DNA from: Acidovorax radicis N35
Lineage (GTDB): Bacteria; Pseudomonadota; Gammaproteobacteria; Burkholderiales; Burkholderiaceae_C
Reading direction: 5' to 3'
DNA: 64,000 nucleotides
NCBI RefSeq assembly: GCF_000204195.1
Contig: NZ_AFBG01000008.1
Coordinates: forward strand, 62,001 to 126,000
The position numbers were made by a program, and so were the translations under genes. Below, piece after piece: positions 2,932-49,999 of this stretch (its first letter is position 1; each line of letters opens with the position of its first letter). The notes under the pieces are model-generated. The model was not told the origin of the DNA. It ran no database searches and saw nothing but the letters and a program-made list of their open reading frames with translations.

Positions 2932-4125
2932 ATGTCCCGCACCCTGCACCTCGCCGAACAGCTCATCTCCCTGCCCTCCATCACCCCGGAGGATGCGGGT
3001 TGCCTCGACCTGCTGGCGGCGCGACTGGTGCCACTGGGTTTTGTGTGTGAACGGCTGGACAGTGGCCCGGCAGACTTCCGGGTCAGCAATTTATGGGCAA
3101 AAAGGCCCGTAGCGCTTGATGGAAAAGCGCAAATAGCTATCAAAAACATAGTATTTGCAGGACACACCGATGTGGTCCCCACGGGCCCCCTGACCCAATG
3201 GAGCAGCGACCCGTTCATCCCCACCCACAAAGACGGCAAGCTCTATGGCCGGGGCGCCAGCGACATGAAAACCTCCATCGCTGCCTTCGTCGTGGCCGTG
3301 GAGGAGTTTTTGGCGGCCACGCCCGATCCGCAGATCGAGCTGGCCTTCCTTCTGACCAGTGACGAGGAAGGACCCTCGGTGGATGGCACCAAGGTCGTGA
3401 TCGAGCAGCTCAAGGCACGCGGCGAAAAGCTCGACTACTGCATCGTGGGGGAACCCACCTCTGTCGAAAAAACCGGCGACATGATCAAGAACGGACGGCG
3501 CGGCACGCTCAGCGGCAAGCTCACCGTGCGCGGCATCCAGGGGCACATCGCCTACCCGCAACTGGCGCGCAACCCCATCCACCAGGCCCTGCCCGCCTTG
3601 GCGGAGTTGGCGGCTACCGTGTGGGACCAAGGCAACGCGTTTTTCCCGCCCACCAGTTGGCAGATCAGCAACATACATGGCGGTACCGGCGCCACCAATG
3701 TGATTCCAGGCGATGTGGTGGTGGACTTCAACTTCCGCTTCTCCACCGAATCCACGGCGGAAGGCCTGCAGCAGCGTGTACACGCATTGCTGGACCGCCA
3801 TAGTCTCGAATACGACCTGCGCTGGACGCTGGGCGGGCAACCCTTCCTGACCACCCCGGGCGAGCTGGTCACTGCCGTGCAGCAGGCCATCACGGCAGAG
3901 ACCGGTCTGACCACCGAACTCTCTACCACCGGCGGAACCAGCGACGGCCGCTTCATCGCCCAGGTGTGCCCCCAGGTGATTGAGCTCGGCCCCCCCAACG
4001 CCAGCATCCACAAGATTGATGAGCACATCGTCGTGGCCGACATCGAACCGCTCAAGAACATCTACCGCCGCACGCTAGAGAACCTGCAGGCCCAGGCCCT
4101 TGCATTGGGCAAGGTGTCGGCATGA
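2932..4125 (+). CDS. dapE: Succinyl-diaminopimelate desuccinylase
   Basis: DapE is an M20-family zinc aminoacylase of 397 residues that hydrolyses N-succinyl-LL-diaminopimelate to LL-DAP and succinate. Metal and catalytic residues are visible in [28 protein letters not shown] and [10 protein letters not shown]. Compared from memory with E. coli DapE, the loop just before FAGHTD is about nine residues longer. That loop (residues 57-72) is encoded by a copy of the palindromic repeat described separately. The C-terminus overlaps the start of prmB by four bases (ATGA), which suggests translational coupling. Confidence 0.97.
3099..3147 (+). repeat. Palindromic repeat copy inside dapE
   Basis: This is a 49-bp imperfect palindrome. 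The left arm contains CCCGTAGCGCTTGAT, the right arm AAAGCGCAAATAGCTATC. It is read in frame as residues 57-72 of DapE and gives the peptide [13 protein letters not shown]. It belongs to the same family as the copies at 4321, 12458, 15132, 21031 and 38473. Confidence 0.75.
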
Positions 4126-5057
4126 GCGTGCAGCAGCAACCCCTCATTCCGGCGGGCAATACCGTGGGTGCCCTGGTGGAATCCGGTGCGCAATGCCTGG
4201 TGGCAGCAGGCGTCTCCTTCGGCCACGGCACAACCAACGCGCACGATGAAGCCGCCTGGCTCGTCTTGTGGCGCCTGGGCCTGCCGCTGGACAGTGACCT
4301 GTCGGACGCCCCTGATTCCATCAAAAATCAGCCCGTAGCGCCCGCCGATCAAGCGCGAGTAGCTATACTTTTTGAAGAGCGTATCCGCACCCGCAAACCC
4401 GCCGCCTACCTCACGCAGGAGGCCTGGCTGCAAGGCGTGCCCTTTTACGTCGATGAGCGCGCCATTGTCCCGCGCAGCTTCATCGCAGAGTTGCTGGTCG
4501 ATGGTGGTGCGGACGAGTACCTGAGCGACCACACCCACCGGGTGTTGGACCTTTGCACCGGCAACGGCAGCCTGGCCGTGCTGGCGGCCATGGCCTGGCC
4601 GGAGGTTCAGGTGACGGGCGCTGACATTTCAGCCGATGCGCTGGCCGTGGCACGCATCAATGTGGACAGACACAGCCTGCAAGACCGCATCCAGCTGCAA
4701 CTCTCCGATGGTCTCACTGCACTGCCGGGGCCCTGGGATCTGATCCTGTGCAATCCGCCCTACGTGAACGCGGCCAGCATGGCAGCGTTGCCCGCCGAAT
4801 ACCGCGCAGAACCCGAGCTGGCCCTGGCCGGTGGCAACGATGGCATGGACTTCGTGCGCCAGCTGTTCGCTGCGGCTCCGGCCTGCATGAGCGAAGATGC
4901 GGTGATCATTCTGGAGATCGGCAACGAGCGCGCCTACTTCGAAGCCGCGTTCCCCCAACTGCCTGTTTTCTGGCTCGATACCAGCGCTGGCGAAGACCAG
5001 GTTTTACTGGTGACCCGGCAGGCTTTGACCGCCCAATCCCGGCTCACGGCACAATAG
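4122..5057 (+). CDS. prmB: Ribosomal protein L3 N5-glutamine methyltransferase
   Basis: This 311-residue SAM-dependent methyltransferase has the HemK/PrmB arrangement. A helical N-terminal domain (~1-120) includes [12 protein letters not shown], and the catalytic domain has SAM motif [14 protein letters not shown] (~143-155), [14 protein letters not shown] and the NPPY signature in [14 protein letters not shown] binds the glutamine side chain. PrmB rather than PrmC is favoured by the [22 protein letters not shown] and [13 protein letters not shown] segments. Residues 67-84 are encoded by a palindromic repeat copy in the linker before the catalytic domain. The start overlaps dapE's stop. Confidence 0.92.
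4321..4375 (+). repeat. Palindromic repeat copy inside prmB
   Basis: This repeat copy shares CCCGTAGCGC and the AAGCGC...TAGCTAT right arm with the dapE copy. It is read in frame as residues 67-84 of PrmB (core peptide [11 protein letters not shown]) in the N-terminal domain linker, where a comparison with E. coli PrmB from memory shows about five extra residues. Confidence 0.7.
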
Positions 5058-7237: not shown

Positions 7238-7264
7238 GAAAGGGCCACATTTTGTGGCCCTTTC
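7238..7264 (+). terminator. Rho-independent terminator after the YheS gene
   Basis: A perfect 12-bp stem, GAAAGGGCCACA paired with TGTGGCCCTTTC around a TTT loop, lies 21 bases after the stop codon. The following bases are only partly T-rich (GCTTATG), so termination may rely on the strong stem. Confidence 0.75.
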
Positions 7265-7393
7265 GCTTATGCAGAAACAATTTTATGCTTCTTTTTTGAT
7301 AGCAAACTACATTCTCAATGTGCGGGCACTTGCGGTTGCATTTTTTTGCGAAGCGCTGTCAACGGACTGTGGATTGACCGCGTTGTTGGTACA

Positions 7394-11845: not shown

Positions 11846-12184
11846 ATGTACCTCATCGTCATCGCCTGGACGTACGTCACCCTCATGATGGCGGTGGCCG
11901 AAGCCACCAGCCCCAACGGCACGGTGCTGGGCGCCGTGATCACCTTTGCGCTGTATGGCCTGCTGCCCATGGGCATTCTGGTGTACATCCTTGGCACACC
12001 TTCACGCAAGCGGGCAATCAAGGCACGTGAGGCTGCGGAACAAGCGGCCTACGATGCCGGGCAGGCCGCCGCTGCTGCCGCAACCAGCCCTGAATTACTT
12101 GGTTCAGCTGCGCCAGATGCAGGCGGCGAAGCGCCCGCTACCGCCGAGGGCAGCGCTGTCGCGGCGGTGCGAAAAGAACCGTGA
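11846..12184 (+). CDS. Small membrane protein with Ala-rich tail, function unknown
   Basis: This 112-residue protein has two predicted membrane segments (about 1-20, MYLIVIAWTYVTLMMAVAEA, and 28-48, AVITFALYGLLPMGILVYIL). A basic stretch (PSRKRAIKAREAAE) and an Ala/Pro-rich, low-complexity cytoplasmic tail follow. The ATG at 11846 is chosen because hydrophobic sequence begins there; longer upstream starts add no recognisable sequence. Its last 81 bases overlap the 3' end of pgeF on the other strand. I do not recognise a functional domain. It lies divergent from phaC but nothing ties it to PHA metabolism. Confidence 0.75.
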   Translation: MYLIVIAWTYVTLMMAVAEATSPNGTVLGAVITFALYGLLPMGILVYILGTPSRKRAIKAREAAEQAAYDAGQAAAAAATSPELLGSAAPDAGGEAPATAEGSAVAAVRKEP

Positions 12185-12979
12185 GGCGTTGGTCACGGTG
12201 CACCAGGATGATGTGCCGTCGTTGCCATGGATGTGGGTGATTCCCAGGGCCTGCAGCCGCAGCCGTGCCAGTCCGGCCAGGTCGCACAGGTATTTGCCCC
12301 AGACATCGCCGCTCGGCATAAAACACGTCTCTGAAGCCGGATTCGCCTCGCAAAATGCTGCGCGCACTTCGGGCCCCACTTCGAAGGCCTGGGGGCCAAT
12401 GCAGGGCCCCAGCCAGACCAGCATGTCCTGGGCGAGCGTTGGGGAAAGATTGATTGCTCCATTTTTGGTAGCACCCAGCGCTTTCCCATCCAGCGCCAGA
12501 GCCTCAAAACGCTTGAAAACTGCTTCCAGCACACCCTGCCCGCCCACTCCTGCAAGCCCGCGCCACCCTGCATGCGCTGCCGCCACCATCTGGCCCGAGC
12601 GGTGGGCCCACAGCACCGGCAGGCAGTCGGCCACCATGATGGTGCAGGCCACTCCGGGCGCAGTGGCCACGCAGGCATCGGCGTCGATGCCGTCAGGCGT
12701 GCTGCCATCCAGGTGCACCACGCCATCGCCGTGCACCTGGTTCAGAAACACTGGCCGTGCGCTCGTCGGCGCAGTGCCCACCGTGGATTGCAGCCGCAGG
12801 CGGTTGGTGTGTACCGCAGCGGGGTTGTCCCCCACATGGGTACCCAGGTTCAGGCTGTCATAGGGCGGCAGGCTCACTCCACCCGCACGGGTGGTGCACA
12901 GTGCGCGCACGCCCGGGGGTACGGGCCAGTCGGGCACCAGGCAATCGGCCGCAGCCAAAGGGCCTTCGTGGGGGCTCAA
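12104..12979 (-). CDS. pgeF: Peptidoglycan editing factor PgeF (multicopper polyphenol oxidase family)
   Basis: This protein of about 291 residues has the DUF152/YfiH signature: QVHG (His83), ADCLPV (Cys119) and HAGWRG (His136), the zinc/copper ligands of the family. WCTVTNASRFFSHRRD and GRFAACIW follow near the C-terminus. PgeF removes mis-incorporated residues (L-Ser in place of L-Ala) from muropeptide precursors. The start is uncertain: the TTG at 12979 overlaps the stop of the upstream isomerase gene as TTGA, suggesting coupling, and no ATG is placed better. Residues ~158-174 (ALALDGKALGATKN) come from a palindromic repeat copy. Confidence 0.88.
   Translation of the reverse strand: MSPHEGPLAAADCLVPDWPVPPGVRALCTTRAGGVSLPPYDSLNLGTHVGDNPAAVHTNRLRLQSTVGTAPTSARPVFLNQVHGDGVVHLDGSTPDGIDADACVATAPGVACTIMVADCLPVLWAHRSGQMVAAAHAGWRGLAGVGGQGVLEAVFKRFEALALDGKALGATKNGAINLSPTLAQDMLVWLGPCIGPQAFEVGPEVRAAFCEANPASETCFMPSGDVWGKYLCDLAGLARLRLQALGITHIHGNDGTSSWCTVTNASRFFSHRRDSAALGGSGRFAACIWRS
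12458..12509 (-). repeat. Palindromic repeat copy inside pgeF
   Basis: Read on the minus strand this contains GGCGCTGGATGGGAAAGCGC, flanked by TTTTGAGGCTCT and GGGTGCTACCAAAAAT. It is translated in the same frame as the dapE copy and gives LALDGKALGATKN. It lies in a region between HAGWRG and WLGPCIGP that is longer than I expect for PgeF. Confidence 0.75.
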
Positions 12980-13644
12980 GCTTCGTGGTCCGGGCAAGCG
13001 GAAGGCTGCGCCTTCTGGAAGGCGGGCAGCGCCATGCAGGCGTCGAATGCGCCCATCGTGAGTGGCAAGCCCTCCAGGTTCACGTTGAAGCGCCGGCCAT
13101 TGAAGATCTGCGGCACGAGGCAGCAATCGGCCAGCGTGGGGGTGTCGCCCCAGCACAGCACAGAAGGGGCCAGGCCCTGGGCCGCACGCGCTTGTGCCAG
13201 CAGCGCCAGCTGGCGCTCAAAGGCCTCGAGCCCGTTGCGCACCCAGTGGCGGTACCACGCGTTCTTGGCGTCTTCCTCCACCTTCAGCTCACGCACCAGG
13301 TACTTGAGCACACGCGGATTGTTCAGGGGATGGATCTCGCACGCCACCATCTGGGCCAGCGCACGCACACGCGCACGCGCCAGCGGGGTCGGGGGCAGCA
13401 GGGCTGGCGCGGGATGGGTTTCTTCCAGGTACTCGATGATGGCCATCGACTGCGACAGCGCCGCGCCGTCGTCCGTCACCATCAAGGGCACCAGCGCATC
13501 GCCGACGCGGCTTGCGTATTCGGGGGCATGGTGCTCGCCCTTGAGGAGGTGCACGGGGATGTAGTCATAAGACAGGCCCTTGATCTGCAGCGCAATGCGC
13601 ACGCGGAACGAGGCGGAAGAACGGAAGTAGTTGTAGAGCTGCAT
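12976..13644 (-). CDS. Maleylacetoacetate/maleylpyruvate isomerase (zeta-class GST)
   Basis: This is a 222-residue glutathione S-transferase-fold protein. The N-terminal thioredoxin-like domain starts LYNYFRSSASFRVRIAL, with the SSxS-type catalytic serines of MaiA, and SQSMAIIEYLEE provides glutathione binding. The C-terminal helical domain has CEIHPLNNPRVLKYL and GDTPTLADCCLVPQ. The family isomerises maleylacetoacetate (tyrosine pathway) or maleylpyruvate (gentisate pathway). The nearby FAH-family hydrolase and MarR regulator fit either; no homogentisate or gentisate dioxygenase is in the window, so the substrate is not settled. Confidence 0.88.
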   Translation of the reverse strand: MQLYNYFRSSASFRVRIALQIKGLSYDYIPVHLLKGEHHAPEYASRVGDALVPLMVTDDGAALSQSMAIIEYLEETHPAPALLPPTPLARARVRALAQMVACEIHPLNNPRVLKYLVRELKVEEDAKNAWYRHWVRNGLEAFERQLALLAQARAAQGLAPSVLCWGDTPTLADCCLVPQIFNGRRFNVNLEGLPLTMGAFDACMALPAFQKAQPSACPDHEA

Positions 13645-15074: not shown

Positions 15075-15131
15075 CGCCCCCGGCCAGGGCGCCACGCGAC
15101 CCTGGCCCGGGTGCGCAGCCCCTACACTATG

Positions 15132-15180
15132 CTTTTCATAGCTGCCAGCGCTTATACGACAAGCGCTGGTAGCCTATTTG
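15132..15180 (+). repeat. Palindromic repeat copy between FAH and Nudix genes
   Basis: This is the best-preserved palindrome of the family in the window: ATAGCTGCCAGCGCTT and AAGCGCTGGTAGCCTAT are nearly complementary around ATACGAC. It ends 17 bases before the Nudix start codon, so it lies in that gene's 5' leader. A separate GC stem without a T-run (15082-15107) lies just upstream. Confidence 0.8.
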
Positions 15181-19009: not shown

Positions 19010-21557
<2,548 letters not shown>

Positions 21558-26225: not shown

Positions 26226-26511
26226 GGGTCAGGGGGCGGGCAAAAATAGGATGGAGGCAGGGATGCAAAGTGGCGCCGGATGGACGTTCCGGGCCGGAAC
26301 ACGCAGGTCGCACAAGGGCGGAATGATACCGCGCCGCCTGACAGCCACCGGTCCTCGGCGGCACGGTAGCGCCCCACAGCCAGGGCACAACGGAAACATT
26401 TGGAAAAAATGGGGGCTTCCGCTTATCCAGCAACGATTCATTGCTACCAATATTGATACTCCCCGCAGTACCAGCAAGGCCCCGGGGCCGGATTGGAGCA
26501 GCGTTCCCGGG

Positions 26512-29846: not shown

Positions 29847-29925
29847 ATTTGGTGGAAAGTGCCGTCAGCGCAACAGCCCCATGCGTCTTCAGCTATGAAT
29901 TGATGAGTGATTTTTATAGTCTGGG

Positions 29926-37610: not shown

Positions 37611-38474
37611 ATGCAAACCACCAGACAACAACTCAAAGCCCTGGCCCACGCCCGCCGGGGCGTCATCGTGCCCGGCGCCTTCAACGCCCTCTCGGCCCGC
37701 GTGGTGGCCGACCTGGGGTTTGAAGCCCTCTACATCACCGGCGCAGGTGTCACCAACATGTGGTTCGGCCTGCCAGACCAGGCCTTCATGGGCCTGACCG
37801 ACATTGCTGACCACACAGCCCGCATCCGCGACGCCGTGGAGCTGCCGCTCATCGTGGATGCCGACACCGGCTTTGGCAACGCCCTCAATACCTACCACGC
37901 CGTGCGCACGCTGGAGCGCGCCGGGGCCGACTGCATCCAGCTCGAAGACCAGGTCAGCCCCAAGCGCTGCGGGCACTTCAATGGCAAGGAAGTGATCAGC
38001 ACCAACGAGATGCTGGGCAAGATCAAGGCCGCCGTGGATGCGCGCCGCGACCCGGACACTCTCATCCTGGCGCGCACGGATGCCTGCGCCACGCAGGGTT
38101 TCGAGGCCGCCGTGGAGCGCGCCCAGCGCTTTCAGGAAGCGGGCGCCGACATCCTGTTTGTCGAGGCCGTCACCTCGCTGCAAGAGATCCGCGCCCTGCC
38201 CAAGCGGCTGGCGGCGCCGCAACTGATGAATATGGTGATCGGCGGCAAGACGCCCATCACCAGTGCCGAAGAACTGGCGGGGCTGGGCTATGGCCTGGTG
38301 CTGTACGCCAACGCGGCGCTGCAGGGCGCGGTGGCCGGCATGCAAAAGGCACTGACCGTGCTGCGCGACACCCAACGCATCGATGAGGACCCGGCCCTGG
38401 TGGCGCCGTTCGCGGAGCGCCAGCGGCTGGTGCGCAAGAGCGCCTGGGACGGGCTGGAAGAAAAATACAGATAA
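37611..38474 (+). CDS. Isocitrate lyase/PEP mutase family lyase (possible methylisocitrate lyase)
   Basis: This 287-residue TIM-barrel enzyme has the Mg-binding DADTGFGN motif (~83-90), IQLEDQV and the catalytic loop KRCGHFNGKEV with the active Cys. These fit the isocitrate lyase/PEP mutase superfamily. Its position after prpF suggests it does the 2-methylisocitrate lyase step (to pyruvate and succinate). However, ALYITGAGVTNMWFGLPDQAF and other segments look closer to dimethylmalate lyase or carboxyphosphonoenolpyruvate-mutase-like members than to classical PrpB (AIYLSGGGVAAGSLGLPD). The substrate is therefore an inference. The ribosome site AAGGAAACGCC precedes the ATG. Confidence 0.85.
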   Translation: MQTTRQQLKALAHARRGVIVPGAFNALSARVVADLGFEALYITGAGVTNMWFGLPDQAFMGLTDIADHTARIRDAVELPLIVDADTGFGNALNTYHAVRTLERAGADCIQLEDQVSPKRCGHFNGKEVISTNEMLGKIKAAVDARRDPDTLILARTDACATQGFEAAVERAQRFQEAGADILFVEAVTSLQEIRALPKRLAAPQLMNMVIGGKTPITSAEELAGLGYGLVLYANAALQGAVAGMQKALTVLRDTQRIDEDPALVAPFAERQRLVRKSAWDGLEEKYR

Positions 38475-38521
38475 AAAGTGCCACTAGCGCATTAACTGCA
38501 AGCGCCAATAGCTATCAATTA
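38473..38521 (+). repeat. Palindromic repeat copy after the prp operon
   Basis: This intergenic copy reads CCACTAGCGCATTAACTGCA then AGCGCCAATAGCTATCAATT. It lies directly downstream of the lyase stop and could fold as a stem-loop at the transcript end, although the arms are imperfect. Confidence 0.65.
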
Positions 38522-38640
38522 CATAGCAATCAGCATATCTCTCCGGGATAGCCCTTGGATTGCGGCCTGCATCCGTGCCGCACAAGAACGGAGCACACGG
38601 CACAATGGGTCTTCCCAGCACCTTGTGCGCGCTACCCCCC

Positions 38641-47428: not shown

Positions 47429-47640
47429 TCCATCCCCTCCCGGCGCGGCGTTACTACTTGGTGTGGTTCGCGGATTTTAGGGGGCCCTTTATCCTTGCCA
47501 CGGCAGCCAGGTGTTGATGCAGCGTGCCCTGCAACGTGGCGGCGGTCTGCTAATTTTTGGTGAAAATAGGCCCTACCGCTTGTTCACATTGCGTTTATAG
47601 CTATAAATTTAATAGCAAACAACTTTCAAACCACCTACCC

Positions 47641-48061: not shown

Positions 48062-49999
48062 TCAGGCGATGTTGACGGTGAGATTCGCCGCGTAGCCGCT
48101 CGCCACACTCCCACTGATGGCCACCATCTCCGTGCTGGTGCCGTCGCTGAACACGTTGTCGGCGGCGAAGCTCGCCACCGAACTGTTCTGGCCCTTGGCG
48201 CTGTACAGCGTGCTGTTGTAGACCGCCGTCGTCGCGTCCTGGGGGAAGGCCAGTTGGGTGGTGGCCGTGGCGGTGACGCTCAGGTTGTCGTTCAGATAGA
48301 CCTGGGCGTGGATGTGCGTGATGCGGCCTGCGTACCAGCCGGGGTAGATGGTGGTGAAGGTGACCTGGCCACTGCTGTTGGTCACCTGGATACCGCGCAG
48401 ATACGTCAGCCCCGCCTGGCCCGCATTGGTGCCGGTGCTGTAACCCGAGTAGAGGCCATCCTTGTCGCAGTGCCAGATGTAGACCGCTGCACCGGACACA
48501 GGTGTACAGCCATTGCTCACATCCTGCACCGTCAGCGTGACCGTCAGCGGTACGCCGGTTTTGCCCTCGGTGATGTTGCTGCGCACCATGGCCGAGTTCG
48601 ACAGGATTGCCAGCAGTGGATAGGGCCCCTGGGTCTCGGTGGCCGTGAGTGTGCAGGTGCCCGTGGCGGCGCGCGTGGCCACCACCGTGTAGGTGCGCGC
48701 CGTGACGCCATCTGCAGCCGTCACCACGATGCTCAGTGTGTTGCTCCCCACCGCCAGGGTGATGGCGGATGACGCCGATCCGCTGGCCACCGTGCTGCCG
48801 TTGACCGTGACCTTGGCGCCACTGCTTGCAGTGGTCGGCGTAAGGGTCAACGAAGCCACGGTGTTGGAGATGGCCGCCGTATAAGACGTTGTGGCCGCCG
48901 CAAAGGATGGTGACAGGCTGCCGGACGACAGGACCAGCGCAGACAGGCTCGCGTCCGTGGACACCGAGGCTGCCGCGCGTGTCACCACCACGGTGGTGGT
49001 GCTGCTGGTGCCGCCGTCCTGCGCGGTCACGACGATCTTGACCGTGTTGCTGCCCACCGCCAGCGCGATGGCGCCGGAGTTGCTGCCGTTGGCCACCGCC
49101 ACGCCATTCACCGAGACCGTGGCCGCCGCGCTGGTGGCCGTGGGCGTCACGGTGACCGAAGCGACGCTGTTGGCGACCGTGGCGGTGTAGCTGCTGGTGG
49201 CGGAAGCGAAGGCCGGCGTGAGCGCCCCAGCCGACAGCACGAGTGCTTTGAGCGAGGCATCGCTGGACACCGTGGTGGCGGCCCGCGTGACAACGATGGT
49301 GTAGCTGCGCGTGGTGACCTTGTCCTGGGCGGTGACGCGCACGGTGAGCGTGGTGGTGCCTACGGCCAGCGAGATGGCTGCCGACGCGCTGCCGCTGATC
49401 ACGGCCACGCCATTGATACGGATGCTTGCGGCGCTGCTGGTGGCCGTGGGCGTGAGCGTGACCATCGAGACGGCATTGGCCACCGCCACCGTGTAGGCCG
49501 TGGTGCCCGCCGCAAACGTGGGCGACAGCTCGCCCGACGACAGCGTGAGTGCGCGCAGCGACGCATCTGGGGACGCACTGGCCGGCGCCCGCGTGACCCG
49601 CACCGTGTAAGTGCGCGCGGTGCTGCCATCGGCCGCAGTGACGACGACCGACAGCGTGTTCGCTCCCTCGGCGAGGGCCACCGTCGCCGTGCTGCTGCCG
49701 CTGGCCACCGTGGTGCCGTTGACCTGGACGCTGGCATCGGCGCCCGCAGTGGTTGGCACCAGCTTCAGCGACGCAACGGTGTTGGCCACCGCCAGGTCGT
49801 AACTGGTGGTGGCCGCATCAAACGCCGGGCTCAACCCTTCTTCTGACACGCTCAGCCCGGAGAGCGCCGCATTGCTCGACGTGCTGGAACTGCTGCTGCC
49901 GCCACCTCCGCACGCGCTCAAGGTCAGCGCCGTGAGCGCGCCCACGGTGCCCAGTGCATTGCGACGCCGGGTGAGAAGAGGATGGGTTGCGTGTGTCAT
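48062..49999 (-). CDS. Tat-exported lipoprotein: four cadherin-like repeats fused to an intradiol dioxygenase-like domain
   Basis: This 645-residue protein starts with a twin-arginine-like signal (LLTRRRNALGTVGALTAL) ending in lipobox LSAC (Cys30). A Gly/Ser linker follows, then four ~97-residue beta-sandwich repeats (about 43-138, 141-238, 241-336, 339-434) of the cadherin-like PF12733 type, each with SLxALxLSxGxLxPxF and YTVxVTRA ends. The C-terminal domain (~436-645) looks like an intradiol ring-cleavage dioxygenase: TETQGPYP, AAVYIWHCDKDGLYSGY and TTIYPGWYAGRITHIHAQVY. These give all four expected Fe(III) ligands (Tyr, Tyr, His, His). The substrate and activity are unknown. Confidence 0.88.
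   Translation of the reverse strand: MTHATHPLLTRRRNALGTVGALTALTLSACGGGGSSSSSTSSNAALSGLSVSEEGLSPAFDAATTSYDLAVANTVASLKLVPTTAGADASVQVNGTTVASGSSTATVALAEGANTLSVVVTAADGSTARTYTVRVTRAPASASPDASLRALTLSSGELSPTFAAGTTAYTVAVANAVSMVTLTPTATSSAASIRINGVAVISGSASAAISLAVGTTTLTVRVTAQDKVTTRSYTIVVTRAATTVSSDASLKALVLSAGALTPAFASATSSYTATVANSVASVTVTPTATSAAATVSVNGVAVANGSNSGAIALAVGSNTVKIVVTAQDGGTSSTTTVVVTRAAASVSTDASLSALVLSSGSLSPSFAAATTSYTAAISNTVASLTLTPTTASSGAKVTVNGSTVASGSASSAITLAVGSNTLSIVVTAADGVTARTYTVVATRAATGTCTLTATETQGPYPLLAILSNSAMVRSNITEGKTGVPLTVTLTVQDVSNGCTPVSGAAVYIWHCDKDGLYSGYSTGTNAGQAGLTYLRGIQVTNSSGQVTFTTIYPGWYAGRITHIHAQVYLNDNLSVTATATTQLAFPQDATTAVYNSTLYSAKGQNSSVASFAADNVFSDGTSTEMVAISGSVASGYAANLTVNIA
48697..49873 (-). 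repeat. Four tandem ~290-bp cadherin-like coding repeats
   Basis: Four in-frame repeats encode similar beta-sandwich units. Recurrent nucleotide blocks such as the CGCGTGAC...CACGGT boundary segments recur at roughly 290-bp spacing. They are diverged enough not to be recent duplications. Confidence 0.8.

Follow-up and report, generated by a model that had tools for sequence, protein, structure and literature searches.

A dispersed DNA motif lying on conserved coding sequence in Acidovorax radicis N35, a candidate self-recognition motif of Comamonadaceae

The palindromic repeat within dapE belongs to a dispersed family whose in-gene copies, for the most part, very probably arose in place on existing coding sequence. 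From its effect on protein length, its lineage spellings, and its placement, the explanation we favor is that it may be a self-recognition motif that biased DNA uptake keeps in place, to which we give an even chance of being right. It would then be a genome-wide DNA recognition motif rather than an inserted element, with copies kept both between genes and on coding sequence.

The repeat family and its distribution

A search of the whole 5.526-Mb genome (G000, 30 contigs) with the pattern AGCGC-N10-AGCGC-N4-AGCTAT and up to two mismatches returned 306 + 318 = 624 matches, versus 3 + 2 = 5 for the reversed control pattern. The repeat family is real, and it shares a strong genomic over-representation with the uptake sequences of Neisseriaceae (DUS) and Pasteurellaceae (USS). 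In the window, by which we mean the whole 64,000-nucleotide stretch analyzed, six matches with up to three mismatches were found against 0.02 expected, which excludes chance. A weight matrix, trained on the same copies that it scores and controlled with reversed sequence, identified 346 copies above 12 bits in 2.464 Mb of G000 and 0 in the reversed sequence. These copies are conserved from approximately −24 to +45 around the core with a total of 66 bits. The motif (~57–70 bp) consists of two GCGC blocks about 10 bases apart, followed by AGCTAT, with A/T tracts flanking.

The first-pass annotation had described the repeat inside dapE, prmB, pgeF, and ligA and at least twice between genes. The weight matrix confirmed all four gene copies, which indeed share frame and orientation relative to the element, and three strong and three weaker copies between genes (Table 1). 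The window also holds four 125-nt direct repeats at an exact spacing of 306 bases (48780-49822; the others are 64–70% identical to the first) and an inverted repeat with 34-nt arms that are 91% complementary and have 208 nt between them (63711-63744/63953-63986).

Table 1. Motif copies in the window with weight-matrix scores
Location	Positions	Strand	Frame	Score (bits)	Remark
dapE (gene 2932-4125 +)	3098..3154	+	+1	71.8	
prmB (gene 4122-5057 +)	4324..4380	+	+1	42.1	on helix, same length in relatives without motif
intergenic	7249..7305	+		29.5	after gene ending 7217
pgeF (ORF 12104-13156 -)	12454..12510	-	+1	47.7	
intergenic	15124..15180	-		59.3	flanked by two + strand genes
ligA	20224..20280	-	+1	15.1	marginal second copy
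ligA (19010-21097 -)	21022..21078	-	+1	33.9	N-terminal tail
intergenic	26405..26461	+		27.5	
intergenic	29854..29910	+		20.2	weak
intergenic	38473..38529	+		61.5	begins at end of ORF 37611-38474
intergenic	47562..47618	+		67.0	divergent gene calls either side

At up to one mismatch, counts range from 0 up to 567 across 46 relatives that share the GTDB genus, with 0–5 matches each in G002, G005, G031, G032, G039, and G042. The motif also occurs in several further genera of Comamonadaceae; 48 genomes from other families gave at most one match apiece. Nothing points to recent movement of the repeat: the most similar pair among 327 copies is identical at 50 of 57 positions. Pairs alike at ≥45 of 57 positions numbered 226 versus 10.1 in column shuffles, an excess that uneven decay or shared descent may account for. 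Within the 327 copies, the 60 strongest column pairs are all ≤7 columns apart, so that neither long-range linkage nor stem pairing is visible. An RNA hairpin was rejected because these 60 include no stem pair and no Rfam family matched the window at gathering score. A half-motif as the real unit was also discarded, as no such k-mer was prominent after masking the copies.

Searches of the open PMC literature, a body with subscription journals mostly outside its coverage, found no account of the motif, and the accessible text of PMC3733652 contains none of six genus or group names. The beta-proteobacterial repeat element (BRE) is likewise dispersed and has some in-gene copies. According to the accessible part of its description, it is ~90 bp long with 69% GC, often tandem, and present in 1–29 copies in the Comamonadaceae listed (PMC3110155). 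Identity of the two was rejected on the published length, GC, and copy number.

Length, reading frame, and codon use of the in-gene copies

Thirty of 50 in-gene candidates were compared with their orthologues in G002 and G032, two congeneric genomes that are poor in the element. In the 52 orthologue comparisons, the net length change was 0 in 26 and ≤3 residues in 40. G002 is the weaker control since it has kept motif relics at some sites, and every one of the 12 top-scoring relative sites came from it. Against G032 alone, 13 of 28 in-gene copies were associated with zero change and 21 with ≤3 residues; the seven exceptions (L032/18815, AcnA, L091/6692, L152, L106, ThiL, and PgeF) amount to 4–18 residues and are each longer in G000. 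The pgeF loop with its copy is 6 residues longer than in G002 and 18 longer than in G032. At the SelO, UvrD, and MiaA sites (L273, L254, and L250), the G002 relics score 20–27 bits, as if decaying.

Deeper outgroups point the same way: the printed alignments of PurK to the solved structures 10bm, 4izo, and 4e4t are gap-free across a 58-bit copy. The same is true of the best structure alignment of TrpF (1lbm) across a 37-bit copy, with a lower match gapped nearby. For RarA, 3pvs is longer at the element, not shorter, and the PriA alignment is less clean. From the motif start to the PAAYLT block, PrmB shows one and the same length in every row, 30 with the motif and 46 without it. NCBIfam models were matched over their curated cut-offs by PurK, PriA, MnmE, AroA, AroE, MiaA, RecG, GlmU, TrpF, ComEC, UbiA, Fmt, Tmk, GpsA, MetG, Gph, and ThiL, and under them by RarA and UvrD.

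Taken together (40/52, 21/28, PrmB in 76/76 rows, and gap-free PurK and TrpF, with 7/28 exceptions), the in-gene copies resemble DUS and USS in arising by substitution and not by insertion, and we consider it very probable that most of them are in place and were not inserted. Rickettsia palindromic elements have been described as insertions adding a peptide. The motif is like them in being a palindromic repeat within reading frames, and unlike them in that 21 of 28 copies change length by ≤3 residues and six frames are used; for these 21 copies, comparison with G032 revealed no added peptide that the orthologue lacks. The earlier proposal of independent insertions of that kind thus fails for most copies, and a peptide of the same length stands at the PrmB site in all 46 relatives without the motif, the kind of outcome that the first-pass annotation had named as refuting it.

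The dapE copy scores >8 bits in 33 of 80 Comamonadaceae loci and occupies the same place wherever positions are listed. Its site is a length-variable loop: it is at least as long as in the window in 33 of 33 rows with a copy, and in the 47 rows without one it is shorter by 3–7 residues in 30, shorter by 1–2 in 5, equal in 7, and longer in 5. Many of the relatives without the motif (30/47) clearly have a shorter DapE loop than the window, and 7 of 47 an equal one. In the match to the NCBIfam DapE model, 374 model positions cover 386 residues. Insertion or loop growth is possible for DapE, PgeF, and a minority of other copies.

Gene location and frame were assigned by a simple home-made coding-score gene caller in 2.464 of the 5.526 Mb, which placed 343 copies above 14 bits between genes (197), at gene edges (67), or within genes (79). 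With frame +1 denoting the DapE frame and minus frames the opposite strand, 73 in-gene copies above 25 bits were distributed as −0 29, +1 21, +2 11, +0 6, −2 5, and −1 1. The repeat had been taken to be always read in the same frame; all six frames are in fact occupied, and the commonest is antisense to that of DapE. What remains of the proposed restriction is a real bias, with 50 of 73 copies in two of six frames (chi-square p ~5e-9 versus uniform and ~1e-8 versus the stop-limited expectation). Among 191 intergenic copies above 25 bits, the stop-free share was 55% for −0, 47% for +1, 44% for +0, 28% for −1, 11% for +2, and 3% for −2. Because the in-gene frames deviate from the expectation for stops alone, peptide tolerance probably also shapes frame choice. 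Third codon bases are drawn towards the DNA motif: the fraction of codons ending in A or T is 0.599 of 1,330 inside the element versus 0.146 in the remainder of the same genes, and GTA accounts for 54% of Val codons inside versus 3% in the rest.

Lineage spellings and chromosomal placement

In front of the second GCGC, G000 mostly has A (84% of 159 copies) and Rhodoferax sp. TS-BS-61-7 (G128) mostly T (97% of the 30 copies listed); the DapE and PrmB copies scored go with the spelling of their genome. The motif thus has lineage dialects, as do DUS and USS. Spelling was scored on listed copies only (34 for G128 and 35 for G145; in a second scoring, 30 for G128 and 20 each for G131, G144, G146, and G139). 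By the mean score for the Rhodoferax spelling over 20 listed copies each, G144 (+17.3) and G131 (+7.3) are of Rhodoferax type, and G146 (−15.1) and G139 (−12.3) of Acidovorax type.

The copies on conserved genes were scored in the same manner. In the Rhodoferax-type loci L182, L198, L202, and L204, the scores were +24.4, +25.8, +18.5, and +21.3 for DapE and +21.1, +27.8, +19.4, and +19.4 for PrmB. For the Acidovorax type, DapE scored −25.0 in the window, −2.9 in L154, −7.3 in L160, and −5.0 in L232, and PrmB +2.4 in the window, −17.6 in L160, and −9.7 in L232; L154 has no prmB copy. The range is therefore +18.5 to +27.8 in the four Rhodoferax-type genomes and −25.0 to +2.4 for the Acidovorax type (seven copies, four genomes). 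These scores are not independent tests, because the Rhodoferax profile was built from G128, L202 is closely related to L204, and the genome spelling of L154 is known from one listing. Among loci from further genomes, the scores are mixed. The spelling shift may have been a single event in one clade.

Along the chromosome, the copies are spaced with more regularity than expected at random, and those within genes tend to fill gaps. The variance-to-mean ratio of copies per 20-kb bin was 0.56, compared with 0.99 for uniform placement and 1.25 when placement was matched by class (genes and tandem, convergent, or divergent gaps); 0 of 1000 simulations of either kind were so low, and the ratio stayed at 0.57 when only copies above 25 bits were counted. 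The mean interval between copies is 7.0 kb. The nearest other copy is 5.5 kb away for in-gene copies versus 4.0 kb when positions in genes are drawn at random (P 0.004), and the gaps that in-gene copies occupy measure 18.3 kb versus 14.8 kb at random (0/1000). Contrary to this trend, the dapE and prmB copies are only 1.2 kb apart. Convergent gaps have the highest density (1.86 per kb), followed by tandem (0.77) and divergent gaps (0.40), and copies in tandem gaps are oriented 65 to 61. The largest copy-free stretch comprises 36.8 kb (G000 C7 74793-111637, L128-L130); the ten genes scanned in it are ordinary and include oligopeptide-transport genes and glmS.

What may maintain the motif

Under the favored explanation, fragments with the preferred spelling of a cell would have an advantage in uptake and recombination, so that biased uptake in natural transformation would drive tolerated sites towards that spelling. 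Most in-gene copies would have originated by substitution in place, atop coding sequence wherever the protein allows, and the frame bias would reflect stop codons in some readings together with the peptides that proteins tolerate. Molecular drive of this kind has been proposed for the USS of Haemophilus and the DUS of Neisseria. In the accessible parts of the respective papers, USS are traced to point mutation and DUS are described with dialects and dyad pairs (PMC7811141, PMC3630211); for these systems, the reported features are in-place substitution, dialects, placement limited by tolerance, and dyad pairs (PMC7811141, PMC3630211, PMC1939737). Selective transformation is reported, again in the accessible text, for Acidovorax temperans and Verminephrobacter (PMC4212676). 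It is the combination of these four features with selective transformation in two relatives that leads us to favor biased uptake. As far as the sources consulted go, the motif is also like DUS and USS in its hundreds of copies in and between genes and in its lineage spellings and inverted or dyad pairs, and like USS in the A/T tracts adjoining the core. It is unlike them in size (~57–70 bp and 66 bits versus a core of 9–12 bp), in belonging to another family, in being a candidate known from sequence alone, and in density (~1 per 7 kb versus ~1 per 1 kb for USS). We put forward tentatively that Comamonadaceae could have independently evolved a transformation self-recognition whose evenly spaced tag, several times the length of known uptake sequences, has dialects and remodels core proteins at a dialect change. 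Should the uptake explanation be true, this would be the third bacterial family with sequence-specific DNA uptake, after the two already recognized for it, and the motif would be large enough for fishing out its receptor.

Several observations count against uptake. The motif is far longer and sparser than known uptake motifs. ComEC turned up in 104 of 119 genomes, some of them element-poor, and a phyletic link between it and the motif was rejected as giving no signal. The copy-free 36.8-kb stretch holds ordinary genes, and the 7/28 length exceptions, the excess of near-alike pairs, and a spelling shift that may be a single event also weigh on this side. The literature accessible to us disagrees on how even uptake sequences are, so that strong evenness is also compatible with a site for a chromosome-organizing protein (a supercoil-domain anchor, or a binding site of gyrase or of a nucleoid protein). 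Such sites would be selected to lie fairly regularly along the chromosome, with in-gene copies arising by substitution where other sites are far off. Length, low density, and marked evenness make this a serious rival, although we regard it as somewhat unlikely. The mean interval near 7 kb, the filling of gaps by in-gene copies, the graded density from convergent to divergent gaps, and the GC core amid A/T tracts all speak for it. Against these, 66 bits far exceed the ~14 bits that we estimate to be enough for singling out ~600 sites, copy number varies from 0 to 567 inside one GTDB genus, and hundreds of respelled sites demand a co-evolving protein and selection at each. If true, the motif would be a novel type of anchor, spaced out across the whole genome; under either explanation, a force at the DNA level would reshape conserved proteins such as PurK, RarA, and PrmB.

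The equal lengths and the concerted spelling would also be accounted for if the family were spread and homogenized by conversion among copies, with short-patch replacement overwriting native stretches without a change in length, and near-alike pairs do exceed shuffles. Conversion would, however, require a start of homology at every native site, would not by itself produce even spacing and gap-filling, and is at odds with column dependence that is local only; we hold it to be improbable. A mobile palindromic repeat (REP-, MITE-, or RPE-like) that inserts and then decays is still harder to uphold and seems quite improbable. In its favor are the palindromic core, a copy number in the hundreds, the pair of Y1 transposase genes in G000, and the 7 of 28 in-gene copies in loops longer than those of G032; set against these are equal PrmB length in 76/76 rows, gap-free PurK and TrpF, the lack of near-identical recent copies (best pair 50/57), spacing that is too even, and Y1 genes that are present in element-free relatives as well, so that insertion is already contradicted for most in-gene copies. 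Insertion-like repeats in Comamonadaceae need not be insertions. Selection for one tolerated peptide, as the first-pass annotation had suggested, draws on the 50 of 73 in-gene copies in two frames and is highly improbable, given six frames on both strands, most copies lying outside genes, and third bases that track the DNA motif.

Extrachromosomal DNA was also inspected for the scarcity in newly acquired DNA that is typical of DUS and USS. Seven Comamonadaceae plasmids totaling 1.95 Mb, three of them picked for having a match, contained 11 matches. By BLAST, a method insensitive to so short a query, 4 of 72,556 plasmid records matched. Real copies above 25 bits were present in 61 of 80 viral-contig loci examined (from 98 stretches), in phage or host flank. 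The comEC gene of G000 (L094:15411-17987 +) itself bears a 69-bit motif copy.

REP/RAYT systems share with the motif abundant, mostly extragenic palindromes and the presence of Y1 genes, and differ in that the Y1 genes do not track the motif here. A RAYT link was accordingly rejected, since PF01797 occurs in 93 of 119 relatives, some of them free of the element. One of the two Y1 genes of G000 itself is adjoined by one weak copy and the other by none. G041 and G061 have 33 and 20 Y1 transposase matches, respectively, many of them identical, as in insertion-sequence bursts.
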